DNA from: Actinomortierella ambigua
Lineage: Eukaryota; Mortierellomycota; Mortierellomycetes; Mortierellales; Mortierellaceae
Direction: 5' to 3'
Length of the DNA: 64,000 nucleotides
NCBI GenBank assembly: GCA_016098155.1
Contig: JAAAJB010000002.1
Location: forward strand, 62,001 to 126,000
Shown in pieces: positions 3,256 through 39,532 of this stretch (the first letter of the stretch is position 1; each line of letters starts with the position of its first letter). The translations under genes and the position numbers were made by a program. The notes beneath the pieces were generated by a model. The model did no database searches, was not told where the DNA came from, and saw only the letters and a list, made by a program, of their open reading frames with translations.

Positions 3256-3852
3256 TGTGTGTGTGTCACATATTGTCTCCGTTGCCATCTGTGCTACCAT
3301 CTTCGCTGCCATCTTCGCTGTCGTGCAAGCCAGCGGCGAAGTATTGTACAAACATGACTGCATTATTTTCACGTAGACCAGAGGGCACTTGTGCAGAGAA
3401 CTTGGTCACAGGTACCCAGGACCTCTGTGCATTGAGAAACGAAGGGCAGAACCTGTGCGGACAAAAAAAAACCTCCCTACATTCAGTAACTAGTACCACA
3501 ACAGGAAGCTTGTTCGCTAGAAGAGTGACATCTCTCCCTAGATGAGTTAGAAAGCGCCGCCATATCAGTATCATAATCCTCATCCGACCAAATGCTCCAA
3601 TAGGCCACATTCATTGTTCACCTTCACTCCTTCCAATCTGCTCTTCTATTATCCTAATCTCTCTCTCTTTTTTCTCGCCATCGCTGACAAAGCTACCTCC
3701 CCTTTCTTCATTTCACGCCACAAAATCTTCTGCTTCGTTAACCTCATTCAAGGGAAGAGTGCTTTTCCAGTCTTTAATCCATGTCACAGCTCAGAACACG
3801 CTCTATATCCTCTTGAAGACTCTGTACCGCATCTATGCATCAATGCACCCAT
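2487..3852. other. Convergent intergenic region
   Basis: This is the 3'-to-3' spacer between the unknown gene ending at 2486 and the recombinase gene ending at 3853. It holds a compound GA/GT microsatellite near 3.2 kb. Open frames in it are short or antisense to repeats, and I could not support a gene. Confidence 0.5.
3197..3266. repeat. Compound (GA)n(GT)n microsatellite
   Basis: About 28 GA dinucleotides run directly into about 7 GT dinucleotides. The apparent Arg-Glu and Leu-Ser repeat frames through it are artefacts of the repeat. Confidence 0.95.
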
Positions 3853-6800
3853 TCATTTATTGTTCTCTTTCCCCTCTAGTTCCTCGAGTTTAGTCTGGCA
3901 AACAGCCCAAAATTTAGGCGTGCTGCCCGTGCTGTTGTACAACTCCCTGAGGATCTCCACGGCATCGGGATATGATTTGCCTCTGCACAGGAGAGAGTCG
4001 AGGTATTGCTTGACAAACGACCTGTTGCGTAGCATTCTCTTTGCATTGCTATCCTTTGTGGAGTCGGGATCAAACTTGAAGCGCTTGAGGTGTGCCTTGA
4101 CCTGTGTCCAATTGTGCTGTTCCTCCAGAAGCTCCTCAAGCGAAAGCCTCCGAGCACCTGGATCGTGGTCGTACTTCACCTGAAATCTCCGCAGTTGGGC
4201 AATTTTGGCTTCGTGTGAATGTGGTGGTGGTGGTGGTGGTGATGGCCATGGCGATGTGTTCTCTGACGTAGACGGTGCACGCTCTATCTCTGCGGCGAGT
4301 GTAGGCGGCGTGAGAGCACTGGGAGGTGTGGATGTAGAAGCTGGTAGGATTCGGCGCCCAGGGATGAGCGAATCTGAGCTCCCATGAATGCTGCTGCTGG
4401 CTGCTGAATGCTGTTGCTGCTGCGCAACTAACGACGGAGCATAGGATTGGCTACGCATGAAGGCGGTGTGGAGGCGACTGAGGTTTCTTGTTAGTGACTG
4501 TTGCTCCTCTCGTATCTCCTTGACGGATGACTCGATTGGACGAAGCATCTGCTGCATCGCTCGCGTCTGCAGCCTGTTGGATGATTCTGGGTCAAGGCCT
4601 GCCGATGATGATGATGTCATCGTCGTCTCAGGGGTCTGAGAAGTCTCCTTCATAGCTGCCCACACTTTGTCACGAAAGGCAAGAAACTCATCGCATTTGA
4701 AAACATCGGGGTGGGCGTCCAAAAGCGGCATGGAGACCCCCGCCCATGCCGGTTCCGTCTCTTTAATGTAGAGGTAGGCTGCCGCGTCCTGCAATATCAC
4801 GTGCCGTAGTCGAGCGAGCATCAGCAAGAACTTTTGTTGCGAGGAATATTGAGTGACGGAGCGGTTAGCGTCCTGCTCTCTTGTCTGCTCATGCGGAAAA
4901 ACAGGGTGAGGGAGCAAATCGTTGCTGGCTGCCTCGGCAAGTTTGTTCGTGTCGCGCATCTCTCGATCAACCCCTGCAATCCATGCAATGTGGCTGTTGG
5001 ACTCGGCTATGGGGTCAAACAATGCCTCCTCGATAAAGGGAAAGATCTTGCGTTGTAGGCTGAGATCCGGAAGAACGATATTCCTCGCCAGGAAAAAGCT
5101 GGTATTTTTGAAGCCTGCCATGCCGACGGCAAAGTTTGATGAAATGTCAGAGAGGTGGTTGGGTCGCAACCTTCCAGTTCCTTGAGCCCATCGGCCGCCC
5201 ATTTGGACGTCCTCCTCCCGCAGTCCCATGTTTTGCGCTTCGATTGCTCCGCTGTGCCGCCCTGAATGAGTCACCATGCTAATCGCGAGCCCTTGGCGTT
5301 GGAGGACCTTGGCGGTCGCATCTCGCGTGGTACCGTACGAGATAGGTTTGGTTGGTTTGCTGTCCGCCACCATGACCTTGTGGTCTTTCCACGATCTACT
5401 CTTCCATTGAGGTTGGTTCCTTTCATTCTATGAGATGATAATATTTTTTTAAAGAAAAAAAAATGATGCGTTTTTTAGCATGGGTACCACAGCCTCTCCT
5501 GCCCCACATTTTTTTTTTTTTTTTTTTGCGCATGTGTGTCATGTGTGTGTATAGAAATGTTGACAATGAAAATTTTGAGAGAAAACTTACCTTCCAGATG
5601 TGAAAGAGATAGAATGCGAAAGCGCTGATAGCGCATCGCCTCACGTCTTTGTGCCTGACCGCAGTACCAAATTCTTGCTTGCCCGCGTGGTCTGTCTTGC
5701 TACGGTGGAATTTGAACAACAGCATCGAGAGTGTTTGAGCGCCAGGCTCATCAGTATCGAGCTGATCCATGAAACAGTCGCTGAGGTTGAGGTTGCGGAG
5801 GTCCTCGTCATGGAGAAGCATGCTGTGTCTGATCGCAAGGGCAAAGTGTTCGCGCGCGCGTAGAGCAGGATCGTTCGGCCAGAGAGGCAATGCCGGACGT
5901 GGGTGATTGACCCAGCAGTCAAGTAGCAGCCTCACATGATCAGGGACCGAGTATGCGTCGCATGTGTAATCCCTAGTGGCATTGACCGTGCCCCATACTA
6001 GACCTTGCAGGTAGTTGTCGATCAACGAGGTAACGGTCTTGTCCTGCCTGAGGTTGGGGTGCCCATTTGGGCGCAAGCGACGAGTTCTCTGGCGCGAGTG
6101 CAGGAAAACCAAAGCTTTGAGGCTAATCAGCATAGTTTCTCTGCCAAGCGGTACCTTGAGCGTCTTTCGTCCTAGTCTTTGGCCTTGGTCTGGCTGTAAA
6201 GCGTCTATGACTTTTTTTTTGTGTGTGCGTGTGCGTGTGCGTGTGCGTGTGTGGCAAACCAGTTTAAGAATGTAGGGGAGGATAGTGTCAACATACTTTC
6301 TCCAATACTTGTAGGCCCTCCAATACCACTTCTGCTTCTCCAATATTCCTTCCATTTCTCCAATTAATACCTTCCGTCATGTCGACAACTGTGAGCTTCC
6401 AATTTTGGACAGACGTGGACAATCCGGAGGCACGGGTGTATGGGTTGCGGGGAAGGTTTTCCAGTATGCTTGAAATGGGATTGACTCCTTGGTTGACTTT
6501 CTGGTTGGAGTCATCTCCCACTCGCCGAGAGATAACGCATGCGTTGGGTGGTGCGTCCTGGATAGTGCGATAGACTGGGAATGGTTTGGTGTAATCTTTG
6601 TCTTGGTAGAAGAACTTGTGTTTCATGAGCTTGAACATAACGTCTTGGAAGAACGCCACCACCTTCCCTTCTGTCACTTCGTAACGAGCATCGCCCTCGC
6701 CAGCGTGCTTTTTGTCGCAGTAATTCTAATTTATGCGACAGTAATGAGTGGCGTCAGCATGGCAAGCAGCATCAACATAGAAAATAGAAAAAGCACATCC

Positions 6801-7573
6801 AAGGAAGAGGACATTTGTCTACCTTATAATGAATCAGGTAGGTCCTGTAGTTTCGCGTCGTGTTTTTGCTGCCTGCGTCAAGATTTAACGCCGCCACATG
6901 CTCCTTCATCATGTCTTCTCTGTATCGTTGAATGGCCAGGGCAGCATGCGAGGAGCGCTGCATCTGATTCTGCGGTACAGAGGCCTCGGCAGTAGCCACG
7001 GATTCATTGTCCATCTCCTTCTCTACGGGCTTGAAAACGAGCTCGAACAGTAGCTTCTCGAATGACACGATTCCTTTGGTTTTTGGAGTCGTGGAGCAAG
7101 AAGGCGGGGGTTAGTCTGGCAGCACAACTTCGTACTTTTCCTCTACAAGAAGAAACAGAATGTTACGCACGATTTTTACGGCCTCTTGGTATCATAGTAC
7201 TTTGTCCACCTTGTTCAACGTTCTGCTCTGCCTCAATATCATCCACAGTATCCACATCCTCTTCCTCGCTCTCGCTGGAGGCCTCATCGGTGACTATAGC
7301 CATGCTTATGCTGGATGCAGAGCTCTCGTCTGAGCTGGCTACGGGAGACACGTCACTCAACACCTCATGGGTCTTGTGACGCTTGTACATGCGACCTGAC
7401 CGGCGTCTCTTCTTATTTGTTGTCGTGGTAGGAAGCGGTAGAGCTGGGCGAGCTGCTGTTTCCGACATGAATGTCTGTCTGGCTTCTCCAGGGGCCTGTC
7501 GTGCACGGCCATAGCGCTTGACAGGTGATTGAGAGGAGTCATTCGAGAGGTTGATGACCGTGGTAGAGTCCAT
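3853..7573 (-). CDS. Crypton-type tyrosine recombinase / Ndc10-like protein with GCR1_C-like tail
   Basis: Five exons close in frame: 7573-7180, 7073-6823, 6725-6297, 6193-5591 and 5427-3853, giving 1083 aa. Residues 1-135 are acidic and low-complexity. Residues about 190-250 look like an N-terminal core-binding domain (NTTRNYRTYL, VTEGKVVAFFQD). Residues about 460-670 carry the catalytic-fold region: MLLHDEDLRNLNLSD, then THSGRHSGA (HxxR, H613/R616) and GGRW (W639). The C-terminal about 100 residues (LSLEELLEEQHNW to FWAVCQTKLEEL) look like the GCR1_C DNA-binding domain found in fungal Cryptons and Gcr1. Ndc10 of the yeast CBF3 kinetochore complex derives from this recombinase family. No tyrosine follows GRW for about 100 residues, so the nucleophile appears missing, and the first catalytic Arg position reads His. 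Either a decayed element or a domesticated DNA-binding protein fits; the intact frame favours function. I found no clear element ends. Confidence 0.85.
6221..6253. repeat. (GTGTGC)n/(GT)n microsatellite in recombinase intron 3
   Basis: A GTGTGC-type tract beside a T run lies inside the intron between recombinase exons 3 and 4. On the coding strand it forms a CA-rich stretch just upstream of the acceptor. Reading through it gives a false Thr-Arg repeat. Confidence 0.9.
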
Positions 7574-8895
7574 AGTTGAGCGAGCGAGTGGGTGCGGATG
7601 ATGTGCGATGAGAGAGATGTCCAAGACATTACAATGTGTGCCAAGCATGAACACCAAATCACGCGTTCACGCGCCACTAGAGTGGCAACTTTAATTTGGA
7701 TTGGAATCTGAATGGAGAAAAAACATTGCTCGAGTCATTGGCAACAACGAACATCACCTGGCTCGAAGAGCTCTCCTTTGACTTCGTGACAGAGGCGATG
7801 GAAATGCGCTGCTAGCTCTTGGCGCTTGGCAAGGCTGCACGCCCTGTGCTTCTTTGTCCTGACGACTGAGTCTCGTAGTCTACTAATCAAAGGCACTGTG
7901 CGTTTCTGCCTTTGTTCCCCCCTCGCAACACAATCGATCGGTCCGCACCGAGGTGTTGCCTAACAGCTGGGAACAAGTCGAGGGTTCGAGCGATAACGGA
8001 TGCTGTGTTTCCAGGATCGGCCTGCGGCGGCACATCGCCGATTCCATTCCCTGGCCCGGCACTGGGAAGGTTGCCAGCTTCGTCCCTAGCTTTGGCGTTG
8101 GCGTCTGGCACTTCACCAGCCTCGCCCTCTTGTTAAATCCCTTGAGCGGCGGGTTGAATAATGTATATCTTGAATCCGTGGCGACGGAGCACTCGTTTCA
8201 TTACATACAAGTGCCACCTGCATACATGGTGCGCTATTGGTGGCAAAGTCTGGACATACGCGCGACTTGATCGATTTCCTGACCCTGTCTATGTGAACTC
8301 TCTACTCGATATCGACTTGGCGTGAACGATTTGACAAAGACCTCAAAGTGGTTATTCATTAGTACATATCCTCCTCTTGGATACAGTACAATAGGAAAAT
8401 GGCATATTAAACTATATAAACCTCATCTCTCGTCTACTCTGATCACATCCATGGGTCTTCCCTGCAATAAAGCAACACGGATCCTTTTCTTCATCTCGCT
8501 AATGAAAGTGAAGATATGAGACTTGTCGTTGGTCACACACACACTGTAAGGCTTTATTCTAACCTTGACATACACCAAGCTTAGAATAAAGCCCGACTGT
8601 GTGATCAACGACAAGTCTCATATTTTCATGCTATGGGGAATGAATGGGTCGACAAAAAGGGGGAGTGGCGGGTGTGCGAGAGTGTGTACGAGCGAGTGGA
8701 ATGAGACCAAGTCCTCTCTCACCCGCAACGAGGAATGAGAACCTACACATCAACAATTCTTTAATTCGAAAGCCTTCTTGAAATATATACAAGAAAATGA
8801 TACCAAGGGCCAGCCACAGGGGGCACATGTGAGCTACTTGAAATGGAGCAGCTTCTTGTTTGTTTTTTTTTCTCACACAAATACAAAGTCATCAC
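7574..8895. other. Intergenic region between recombinase 5' end and SOD 3' end
   Basis: The region is upstream of the recombinase start and downstream of the superoxide dismutase stop. 7.88-8.14 kb is more GC-rich and has open frames on both strands (60-105 codons) without a recognisable family; it may be an eroded coding fragment. A long inverted repeat at 8514-8623 is listed separately. Nothing else could be assigned. Confidence 0.45.
8514..8623. repeat. Near-perfect 110-bp inverted repeat (hairpin/foldback)
   Basis: The left arm 8514-8562 pairs with the right arm 8581-8623 around an 18-nt loop. The outer 18 nt (8514-8531 against 8606-8623) are exactly complementary, and so are the inner 13 nt (8550-8562 against 8581-8593). 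The middle is a CA-rich stretch with one mismatch and a short length difference. It lies about 270 bp beyond the SOD stop codon. It could be a foldback/MITE-like relic, or a hairpin in a transcript of either strand. Confidence 0.85.
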
Positions 8896-35675: not shown

Positions 35676-37337
35676 TCACCTTGCAATCTGGGCAGCTTCG
35701 GCCAACGCAACCTCCCTTGCGAGTCGTTGTTCTGGTGTCATTTGGCGAACCTCTTCGAGCTGAGCCAATTGGATTGGACGCAGCAAAACCTTACAATACT
35801 TCCAGAGCTTGTCCGTGCTATTGGCGACCTCCAGTCGATCACGCATATTTTGCACATAGGCAATGGCAGCTTCCACCGTGGCAACCTTGCCAGAGTAGAC
35901 CAGATGGTCAATGTAGCGAGAAATGTTTCTCCGATTGGTGAATGTCCTCTGAGAGTTGACGGGCCGTCTTCTTTCCCGTGCCCTCCTATACTCTTGTTGC
36001 TCCATCCATAGCTCCTTCACCGTCAGTGGCGCCCTTCTACCTTTTACTTCGATCGTGGGGCTGAGCGGCACGCCCAAGCTATTGCCTCCTATGTTTGGCT
36101 GTAAAGGCAAGGCGGGAATGGGTGCTGGGACTGGTGTGAATGCTGAGGCTGGTACGTCGCGTGGTTCATGCTCAGACTCTCCGTCCTTCTCGTCGTCGCC
36201 GTCGCTATCATTGGACGCGACAACTTGAGCTAGTGCCGCTGTAGCGGGTGCTGGTAGTACCGGTGCAGATGTAGCAGGTGCTGGTGCTGGCAGTACCGGT
36301 GTTGGTGTAGTAGGTGCTGGTGTTGGTAGTACCGGGGCTGATGTAGTAGGTGCTGGTGCTGGTAGTACCGGTGCTGTTATAGTAGGTGCTGGTGCTGGTG
36401 GTATCGGTGCTGTTGTAGTACGTGCTGGTGCAGGTAGTACCGGTGCTGTTGTCGTAGGTGCTGGTGCTGTTGTAGTAGGTACTGGTGCTGGTAGTAGAAG
36501 TGCTGATGTAGTAGGTGTTGGTGCTGGTAGTATCGGTGCTGTTGTAGTAGGTGTTGGTGCTGGTAGTATCGGTGCTGTTGTAGTACGTGCTGATGCTGGC
36601 AGTGGCGGGGCTGATGTAGTAGGTACTGGTGCTGGTAGTATCGGTGCTGATGTGGTACGTGCTGGTGCTGGTAGTACCGGGGCCGATGTAGTGGGTGCTG
36701 GTGCTGTTGTAGCAGGTGCTGGTGCTGTTGTAGTACGTGCTGATGCTGGTAGTACCGGTGCTGATGTAGTACGTGCTGCTGCTGGTACTGGTACTGGTAC
36801 TGGGTAAGGAGCAATGGCTGGTAGGGGCCGGCCAGGGGTAATACGGGGTATCAGCCGCTGCAACTTTTCCATCTCCTGTGCAATCCGCCGCATTTCCTTA
36901 TGTATTTCCCCTACAGCAAACTGGAGCTGTTGGTTTTGTCGAAGAAGGGTTTCAAGAACGGGGTTGTTGTCGGATGGCTGGACTCCTGAAGGAGAGGGAG
37001 TACCTTCTTCTGGGTTGGATGGTGTTTCTACGTAGTGTTGGTAATGTTGATCGCGAACTTGGCCATTCCTCCCCGCCTCGTATCCCGCTTCTTCTACATC
37101 ATCATTTGTGGGCGGGCGCAATGACTGGCACGGGCGCTTTGATAGAGGCGCCAGGTTGGCACCTTCAGATCCTCGGCGTTTGTATCCAGTTGCCTGGATT
37201 GCTTCGATCCTGTCATCTTCGCCTGCTTTAGGGGGACAGCTGGGAACGCGTAAACCTTGGGAGGGCGTGCTTGAAGAGCCACTACCAGTGACAGTGGTAG
37301 TAGAAGTCCCGAGTGATTCCGCGCGAGTCAACGTCAT
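35676..37337 (-). CDS. GCR1_C-like DNA-binding protein with Pro/Ala/Thr repeat domain
   Basis: A single open exon of 553 aa starts at ATG 37337. Residues 1-125 are polar. About 127-165 is a predicted coiled coil (LETLLRQNQQLQFAVGEIHK and on). About 180-365 is a tandem 12-residue Pro/Ala/Thr repeat (units such as APTPTTTAPILP). An acidic spacer follows (DSDGDDEKDGESEHEPRD). The C-terminal about 120 residues (LTVKELWMEQQEYRRARERR, FTNRRNISRYIDHL, DKLWKYCKVLL) resemble the GCR1_C DNA-binding domain and the tail of the recombinase at 3853. No recombinase core is present, so this could be a stand-alone transcription factor, or a Crypton tail that became separate. The function is inferred only as DNA binding. 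Confidence 0.75.
   Translation of the reverse strand: MTLTRAESLGTSTTTVTGSGSSSTPSQGLRVPSCPPKAGEDDRIEAIQATGYKRRGSEGANLAPLSKRPCQSLRPPTNDDVEEAGYEAGRNGQVRDQHYQHYVETPSNPEEGTPSPSGVQPSDNNPVLETLLRQNQQLQFAVGEIHKEMRRIAQEMEKLQRLIPRITPGRPLPAIAPYPVPVPVPAAARTTSAPVLPASARTTTAPAPATTAPAPTTSAPVLPAPARTTSAPILPAPVPTTSAPPLPASARTTTAPILPAPTPTTTAPILPAPTPTTSALLLPAPVPTTTAPAPTTTAPVLPAPARTTTAPIPPAPAPTITAPVLPAPAPTTSAPVLPTPAPTTPTPVLPAPAPATSAPVLPAPATAALAQVVASNDSDGDDEKDGESEHEPRDVPASAFTPVPAPIPALPLQPNIGGNSLGVPLSPTIEVKGRRAPLTVKELWMEQQEYRRARERRRPVNSQRTFTNRRNISRYIDHLVYSGKVATVEAAIAYVQNMRDRLEVANSTDKLWKYCKVLLRPIQLAQLEEVRQMTPEQRLAREVALAEAAQIAR
36240..36795. repeat. 36-bp coding minisatellite
   Basis: About 14 imperfect 36-bp units encode a 12-residue Pro/Ala/Thr repeat in the GCR1_C-like protein. 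Units differ by codon changes and by a few shortened copies, as expected from slippage or unequal exchange. The frame is kept throughout. Confidence 0.93.
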
Positions 37338-39532
37338 TGTAGAGGTGAGGGAAGGGTAAGAAAAACTTGAGAGAATGCGATAATGAAATAACCAAAGCCA
37401 GAAAGATAGAGGACGCGACAGTCACAAAGTTCTGTGGAACAGTGTGCCTTGGAATTCCTGGCCCCCTCGTCGCCTCAAAGCTCCCTCTTCTTCGGGTGGT
37501 GTCTCTTCTTGGCAACACGACGTCAAGATGGCGGATGTCTCTATGAACCAGTTCTCATATGCGATACCAGAAAACTCGCTTTTTTCACATCCTGGTGGCA
37601 TGGGGTACGTCTCATGGTTGATGCATGCCAAACTGATCTCCCTCCTCGCTGGTGGCTTTGACATAATTGATGGTGATATTATTTTCTCCCCCATTGATGC
37701 TGAATTGTAGAGGGGCAGCTATTGCTTGAGGGAAGTGGTAAAGAAGCCAAAGGAGAACCAGAGCGAGAAGATAATGTTGATATGAGGCGCTTTTTACTTG
37801 TGTATGTCGCATTTGTTTAACCAAGCCAATCCACTGCATGCTCCTCGTGGATATGTATCATATCTTTGAACCCCTCCGGTTGTGGTAGCCATCTTTGATG
37901 TTGGGGACCATTTCTCGTGCTGGAACGTAGATCTTGATTTTTGTTCTTGGTATATGATGTTCGTGAATAGCCCAGAGTATGATTGTTGAAACCAAGAGAG
38001 AACATCGAGCAAGGAGGGCAGTGTCAGTTAAAGGCCGGCTCGTCATACTCCATTTCCACTCATGCCACCCAGGCATCATCACAGAACATCACATGTCATT
38101 CATACCATTGAATGCTCGGGATAGGCGAGAATAGTCCCCTGGTCGCATGGTTGAAGGCCACGGAGGATAGGCGCCTGTGCCAAAGAGGCAAGCAGGCCAA
38201 CATTCTTCACTCCAACCAGTTGAGATGGCGGCCTTGGGCCATCCAGGCGAAGAGGGCAGAGTAGTGATTAGTGCTGGTAAGGTAGCATACCGGTACAAGT
38301 TCGCGTACTGTCACTATCGTACCATGGTATACCGATGGGCTTAGAGATCTGTCAGTGATGTATGCCCTGCATCTCTTGGCCGTTTTTATGTGCTTTTGGC
38401 CGTTTTCGCATGATCTAGAGCGTTTTGGTGAGGGTTCTAGGTGGAGTCCAGGCCGAATTCTTGCTTGTTACTATCATCTGAATGGATTTGTTAATCCTTT
38501 AAAAGGTTGAGTTATTAATCCGTGTACACGCGCCCTTTGGGCTTTGGGTTGTGGTTGAAAGCATTTTACGGATCAACACTTCAACTGATGGCAAAGGCAA
38601 AGACGACAAATATGCAAGCAAGGGCAATCGAAATCAAGGATATGTGGATGGCGCGACTTCAGAAGCGAATGGAGTACCAGCAAATCGAAGAAGGCGTGCC
38701 AAAGGAAGATGGGTTGGATCGGTACAGGTTTCGAATATGATACAACGCACTTCACTCTGTCACTCTGTGTGTCGATCTGTTCAATCTGGTCGATCAGCTG
38801 CACTCGCTGCCAACGCGTAGTGTTTCATCAGGATATAAAAAGATCGAGAACCATCCAATCCTATAACCCCCCGTTCCCTCTTGAGAAAAGAAGAAGAACT
38901 AGAAAAAACTCCCTTTCTTTCCACGCTATCTAACGGGGCAAAGAGTGATCTGAGGAAGGGGGGAGTGATACCGACCTTCTATAGCACGAAGGCTTGGTAC
39001 AGTTCCCCTAGATTTCACCAGATACTATGCCGTTAGCTCTTGACATTGGACGGAGGCAGGTGTTTTTGCCACCAAAAATTCTGGTTTCAGTATGGAAAAA
39101 ATGGTCGAGTGGGTCAGGACTGGGGATTTGCTCAATGTAGTCTCACATATTGGGTGCTTATCTTTTTTTTTTATTATGGTGATGTTGCGATGAAGATGAT
39201 GGCAGTACATGGCACCATATTCATCGCCTCTGATATCCCTGCTGCGAATCCTCGGGAGTCTGCAAACTTTCCCCCGACCCCCATCCCCCATCTATGTAGG
39301 AGGTCTGTGCACTCGGGTCGGAGAGAAACTGTTAGAAGAGAAACTAGTAGACACGGCAATAATAAACACCTGAGAATGTGCCAAGCCCTCTCTCTCTTGT
39401 CACACACGCAACCGTCGGGGCGTATATTTATTTGTAATTGCAGAAATGTACGAACGTATTTACAAGGTGTATGACCCTACAGGCGTAGAATCTTTTTGTG
39501 CGACATCAGGCTCCTTTTCTTGTCCTCATCGT
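37338..39532. other. Intergenic region upstream of the GCR1_C-like gene
   Basis: Several non-repetitive open frames of 70-90 codons occur on both strands (for example 37422-37694 minus and 38522-38740 plus). None is recognisable or spliceable into a gene. A short tandem of TTGGCCGTTTT elements lies near 38.38-38.42 kb. The region may contain decayed mobile DNA, but I cannot show that. Confidence 0.4.

Follow-up and report, generated by a model that had tools for sequence, protein, structure and literature searches.

What becomes of a transposon recombinase gene that keeps an open reading frame when key catalytic residues are gone? The question is raised by a gene in a 64,000-nucleotide stretch of the Actinomortierella ambigua genome (contig C112:62001-126000, hereafter the window; the assembly comprises 33.8 Mb in 846 contigs). 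The gene lies on the minus strand from position 7573 to 3853, has a superoxide dismutase gene beside it (window 8896 on), is divided into several exons and encodes a CryptonF-type tyrosine recombinase of the Pfam NDC10_II kind. We consider it probable that this is a CryptonF-derived gene that the host has domesticated, and the evidence comes from its reading frame, its active site, its relatives and a set of broken fragments beside it.

The reading frame is open over most of the gene. The minus-strand stop-to-stop ORFs are 3853-5427 (524 aa), 5423-6376, 6288-6725, 6772-7110 and 7163-7666, and enumeration of GT-AG introns near the proposed ones yields 60 models with an uninterrupted frame of over 1000 aa, which include the 1083-aa length given in the preliminary description. 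Homology backs the last three exons, and the exon preceding them is backed by its motif only. The last exon (3853..5427; 524 codons plus stop) is open throughout, finds a match in 13 of 14 other loci, and contains the C-terminal half of the recombinase domain, a QDAA region, a low-complexity linker and a C-terminal tail. NDC10_II (PF16787) scores 24.5 bits in this exon alone, below the curated cut-off of 26.3, and 29.2 bits when its neighbours are added in frame. A predicted intron with a GTAAGT donor (5428..5590) precedes the last exon, and breaks of frame at about the same place in relatives such as C146, C303, C337 and the database protein P0001 suggest that this intron is common to them. 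The next exon upstream (5591..6210), which carries the Arg I region and the beta-hairpin Lys, is defined by splice enumeration and by homology to C303, C146, C135 and others; its ORF (5423-6376) matches NDC10_II at 31.5 bits, above the cut-off, and its 5' boundary varies between models, those listed placing it at 6210, 6204, 6193 or 6189. The exon beginning NYCDKKH (6293..6725) rests on homology to the same three copies and on splice enumeration, with donors from 6370 to 6292 in the listed models leaving its 3' boundary uncertain.

Toward the 5' end the gene model becomes less certain. The paralogues match at most a few residues 5' of the NYCDKKH exon, and none matches at E<=1 on the 5' side of the TxRNYRTYLIHYK motif. 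Open frame and splice enumeration define both the exon bearing this motif (6823..7073, with an uncertain 5' boundary) and a putative first exon (7201..7573), which is acidic, of low complexity and ambiguously joined to the next. Were the second exon to begin at 7142, behind the acceptor that looks strongest (TTCTTGTAG), the frame would meet a TAA after EEKYEVVLPD. Because the open models bypass this acceptor and use those at 7073, 7056 or 7053, the 5' end of the gene is uncertain. The open frame described earlier thus stands at its full length as one of the 60 models, and its 5' exon is ambiguous. The possible TAA also speaks for another reading, in which the gene is a dead CryptonF copy that decays slowly: chance removed its catalytic residues once it had inserted, and stops and frameshifts have yet to accumulate. 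We regard this reading as a real competitor, although on balance it is unlikely.

Does the encoded protein retain the active site of a tyrosine recombinase? The catalytic columns were judged from an alignment of 11 genome copies, the window copy included, with the database proteins P0001, P0002 and P0003; P0004 was aligned separately. The window copy carries the tetrad H-H-R-H instead of the R-H-R-Y that is expected of a CryptonF transposon. The Arg I position (5810..5812, minus strand) is a CAT codon for His, since MLLHDEDLR of the window copy aligns with MLLRDEDLR of P0001, C303 and C387. The position of the nucleophile Tyr (5155..5157, minus strand) is a CAC codon, also for His, and here RLRPNHLSD aligns with RMESFYLSS of P0001. 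This His stands at +11 from the Trp of GGRW; the first Tyr beyond that Trp follows at a distance of 114 residues, so that none occurs for 113 residues after GGRW. The HxxR motif (THSGR, 5257..5271), GGRW with its Trp (5188..5199) and the hairpin Lys (RSKT) are kept on the same strand. The residue assignments of the preliminary description are therefore borne out by alignment with relatives: both His replacements, the two kept motifs and a stretch of about 100 residues past GRW that is free of Tyr. Phosphodiester cleavage is not expected of a tyrosine recombinase without Arg I and Tyr. Among the 53 other positions that are identical in four tetrad-bearing members, the window copy retains 42, compared with 2 of 4 in the tetrad, a difference that is not significant (p=0.22); when the window copy is pooled with C146 and C303, 120 of 159 such positions and 6 of 12 tetrad positions are kept (p=0.061).

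The genome holds about 15 other diverged loci related to this gene, and none is near-identical. Sequence of this kind is found on 16 contigs, namely that of the window, those of 10 tabulated copies, and C66, C222, C333, C118 and C283, whose copies are broken or partial and were left unscored; C195 was excluded, its match being probably due to low complexity. In the order Arg I, Lys, His, Arg II, Trp and Tyr, the window copy and C146 both read H K H R W H. C303 reads R K V R F P, C387 R K H R C Y, C337 R D H R W Y, C578 R K H R W Y, C28 R K N R W Y, C131 R K H Y W Y and C99 R T H R N P. C492 reads R K V R S Y in an alignment that is poor around HxxR, and the broken C135 reads R N H stop W Y. 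Thus, R-H-R-Y is kept in 3 of the 11 aligned genome copies (C387, C337 and C578), and all six residues are kept in one (C578).

A profile search of the protein database returned four proteins from 7986 scored candidates, two of them named proteins of Linnemannia zychae and of Mortierella sp. AM989; the four are 23-40% identical, and none is an evident orthologue. The two names point to Mortierellomycotina or a neighbouring group as the source, and a scan for Chloroa_b-bind, the single family by which an algal host was tested, gave no chlorophyll-binding match. P0001 reads R K H R W Y. P0002 has H, R, W and Y where its letters exist and is without the part that would hold Arg I and Lys. P0003 (L. 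zychae EC991_007797) reads R N D R W Q, with His changed to Asp and Tyr to Gln, and P0004 (Mortierella sp. AM989 BGX27_004131) has Cys in place of Tyr. Loss of catalytic residues together with an open frame is therefore also seen in P0003 and in the paralogues C146 and C303, whose last exons are long and open. The same survey lends weight to slow decay: the catalytic losses are not the same in all copies (H/H, V/F/P, Y at Arg II, deletion), the tetrad survives in just 3 of the 11 aligned, and broken copies lie on C66, C135, C222, C333 and C118.

The tree of these copies places C146 and C135 as sisters with full support. The window copy is nearest to C303 by path, and no starred branch resolves its placement; copies labelled as having lost residues do not cluster, a point against domestication (301 of 500 shuffles were as low). 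C146 (locus L010: 4071-4721 and 4785-6533) has an open last exon of 583 codons and carries the same Arg-to-His and Tyr-to-His pair as the window copy. Because its sister C135 has Arg and Tyr, the pair in C146 would most simply have arisen apart from that in the window copy, that is, twice. Could the window protein then be an active recombinase that uses His as its nucleophile? The double origin of the pair in separate branches is what such a protein might leave behind, but Arg-to-His and Tyr-to-His are each a single transition, Arg I is gone as well, and C303 and P0003 have other residues at the Tyr position. To our knowledge, no tyrosine recombinase with a His nucleophile has been described, and we find this reading scarcely credible.

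Three broken pieces of the gene, just outside the window at C112:55921-60896, provide the closest comparison. The first, f56 (C112:55921-56285), is a collinear, internally deleted derivative that lacks the Arg site and includes the 3' flank, the counterpart of window positions 3703..3840 (minus strand) being found at C112:55921-56058. At the Arg site, f58 (C112:58145-58312) has His (CAT) and f60 (C112:60629-60896) has Tyr (TAT, one step from CAT); the nucleophile Tyr site is covered by none of the three. Because neither f58 nor f60 has Arg, Arg I would most simply have been lost before the local duplication. A degenerate repeat array occupies C112:55921-64748, spanning the window's left edge and extending beyond it, and contains the broken pieces of the gene together with repeats of neighbouring sequence, among them the region of ORF 702-2486.

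Has the frame been maintained since that duplication? At sites where the window copy stands alone against concordant fragments, 7 synonymous and 4 nonsynonymous changes are counted (P=0.007 versus an opportunity of 0.247; dN/dS about 0.19), whereas the differences among the fragments themselves comprise 8 synonymous and 20 nonsynonymous changes (P=0.39; dN/dS about 0.82). The two ratios differ at p=0.049 in a one-sided Fisher test, with 11 changes in the first class and 28 in the second, all within about 190 bases from which codons beside length differences were excluded. Furthermore, the window copy and f56 differ at 23 of 220 coding bases and at 32 of 138 bases of the 3' flank (Fisher p=0.0015). 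Both contrasts weigh against slow decay, as does the number of stops. In a neutral simulation of the 918 codons that are supported by homology or by a motif, run with substitutions only and without indels, a mean of 5.5 stops arose at K=0.057 and the probability of none was 0.005, a value that supposes the divergence to be split equally between the window copy and the fragment. No stop has appeared since a loss of Arg that seems to predate the duplication, when about 5 are expected at a K of about 0.057. The probability of no stop is 0.134 at K=0.02, 0.053 at K=0.03 and 0.016 at K=0.04, and no run in 3000 stayed open at K=0.1, so an open frame would not be unusual at K=0.02-0.03. The distance between the window copy and f56 is 0.117, and a three-point estimate from 139 columns gives a branch of 0.067 to the window copy and 0.049 to f56. 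Because the window branch is not shorter than that of the fragment, strong constraint is disfavoured, and on this point slow decay gains. The pairwise dN/dS values with paralogues are useless for this gene because synonymous sites are saturated in all six pairs that contain the window copy. Taken together, modest signs favour a frame that was maintained after the chemistry was lost.

The gene could instead belong to a non-autonomous element that is still mobile, its ends being served by a tetrad-bearing relative. Suitable relatives exist, since C578 has all six residues and C387 and C337 have R-H-R-Y. Moreover, f56 is an internally deleted derivative, and the first 20 kb of the window has no neighbour gene in common with 17 other loci of at most 9.9 kb each (ORFs of at least 90 aa, E<=1e-6). 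However, a search with 4101 bases around the gene found no DNA copy outside C112 except a 38-base stretch on C725. The protein relatives are 26-51% identical to the window gene over matched stretches, which makes shared ends unlikely, and the fragments share their degenerate array with copies of adjacent sequence, as fits local duplication. We therefore rate continued mobility as highly improbable. The preliminary description had held that many near-identical intact copies would mark the gene as one decayed copy among others, and none was found in the genome at the DNA or protein level. Related ORFs adjoin several of the loci (L012:7492-9735, L037:1018-3213, L017:2-667 and L047:3-743); of the two that were scanned, both contain Sel1 repeats and one contains a protein kinase domain. 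A search for Starship-type DUF3435 gave no match, and its controls were silent as well.

The C-terminal tail (3856..4195, minus strand) had been described as GCR1_C-like, and its sequence does not bear this out. Pfam GCR1_C has no match in the last exon at E<=0.1, and hhalign gives the tail a probability of 0.5% against four GCR1_C-bearing tails and 2.1% against a profile of five. GCR1_C scores above its cut-off in C492, C28, C278 and P0002, of which the first two are also NDC10_II members, and below it in C387 and C303. The window tail shows a relationship to that of C303 (z 5.4) and a weak one to that of C387 (z 2.3; 15 of 400 shuffles), and this resemblance to two copies with sub-threshold matches is the only, and indirect, link to GCR1_C. 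The tails of C146 (z 0.3), C492 (0.6) and C28 (-0.5) do not match. The clearest relationship, clearer than that with C303, is to the C-terminus of the ORF at 35676-37421 (z 9.9; 0 of 400 shuffles), and a genome search with that C-terminus at E<=0.1 found just that ORF and C303. This ORF (minus strand, 581 aa) is rich in Pro/Thr repeats and has no tyrosine recombinase domain and no Pfam match. A second kind of relative without the recombinase domain is the 1071-aa ORF on C278 (L047:4773-7985, minus strand), which has GCR1_C above the cut-off and no NDC10_II. The earlier proposal of a domesticated Crypton thus keeps its open frame, both His residues and the lack of a near-identical copy, gains a modest signal of constraint, and finds no support for the GCR1_C identity of the tail.

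Structure prediction adds little to the sequence comparisons, since the AlphaFold models are too poor to confirm the fold (mean pLDDT 50.5 from 5 rows for the window exon and 43.7 from 6 rows for P0003). A Foldseek search of the PDB with the P0003 model alone gave no match at E<=0.001; the Cre structure 7rhy, considered as a fold match to that model, was set aside because an E value of 3.9 has no evidential value. In PDB sequence searches, the best 60 of 126 matches to the profile are all confined to the linker (from profile position 238), and those to P0001, 6 in number, fall at residues 502-575; no match among those listed therefore touches the recombinase domain.

How might such a gene have come to serve its host? 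We propose as its ancestor an ancient CryptonF element, belonging to a varied family in this fungus, from which Arg I was lost and, earlier or later, the nucleophile Tyr. From the chemistry of tyrosine recombinases, the element would no longer have been able to cleave or rejoin DNA. Binding to a DNA site and self-association of the protein have most likely been retained, because most conserved domain residues, the HxxR motif, the hairpin Lys and the C-terminal tail are kept. By analogy with yeast Gcr1 and Cbf2/Ndc10, its role may be that of a sequence-specific chromatin or transcription protein. We infer the order of events, the fold, DNA binding, self-association and host function alike. PMC3212892 derives Cbf2/Ndc10 and Gcr1 from CryptonF, with a catalytic site that is not preserved, and PMC6077249 assigns the main DNA-binding interface of Ndc10 to domain 2 and a contribution to dimerization to domain 3. 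A far broader and more speculative idea, which we think doubtful, is that early-diverging fungi harbour a whole gene family of CryptonF recombinases that are catalytically inactive and have been retained either as regulators that bind DNA or as chromosome organizers, a family in which the active site has been dismantled repeatedly and independently, the His-His pair has arisen twice, and tail proteins without the recombinase, such as ORF 35676-37421, have been spawned.

Domesticated Cryptons are already known from budding yeasts and animals (PMC3212892). For Mortierellomycotina-like fungi, no report of such a gene turned up among the papers listed in literature searches. The window gene would add another instance of an established phenomenon in this lineage, and family-wide loss is the more interesting prospect. 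If the window gene is indeed dead but kept, it and its many relatives at different stages of active-site loss would form a natural series for the passage from recombinase to DNA-binding host protein, from which it could be learned when and how often this passage occurred.

The known systems resemble the window gene to different degrees. CryptonF transposons of fungi and oomycetes share its NDC10_II-kind recombinase, but the window copy is without Arg I and Tyr and no second copy of it was found at the DNA level beyond the local fragments; the transposons have terminal direct repeats, 6 bp long in most, according to PMC3212892. Animal DUF3504 proteins (KCTD1, KIAA1958, ZMYM2-4, QRICH1 and WOC) likewise contain a recombinase domain without most of the tetrad, as noted in the same source, but they originate from animal Cryptons, contain other domains and have lost other residues. 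The yeast genes Gcr1, Msn1 and Hot1 are CryptonF-derived, their Crypton origin being given in PMC3212892, and the ORF at 35676-37421, with its related tail, recalls genes that have only the C-terminal part of a Crypton in common; the window tail differs in having no GCR1_C match by Pfam or hhalign. Cbf2/Ndc10, the CBF3 subunit of budding yeast, belongs to another fungal lineage. It combines an NDC10_II domain, a CryptonF origin and a catalytic site that is not preserved (PMC3212892), and the window gene, if domesticated, bears on whether an Ndc10-like recruitment also occurred outside yeasts.
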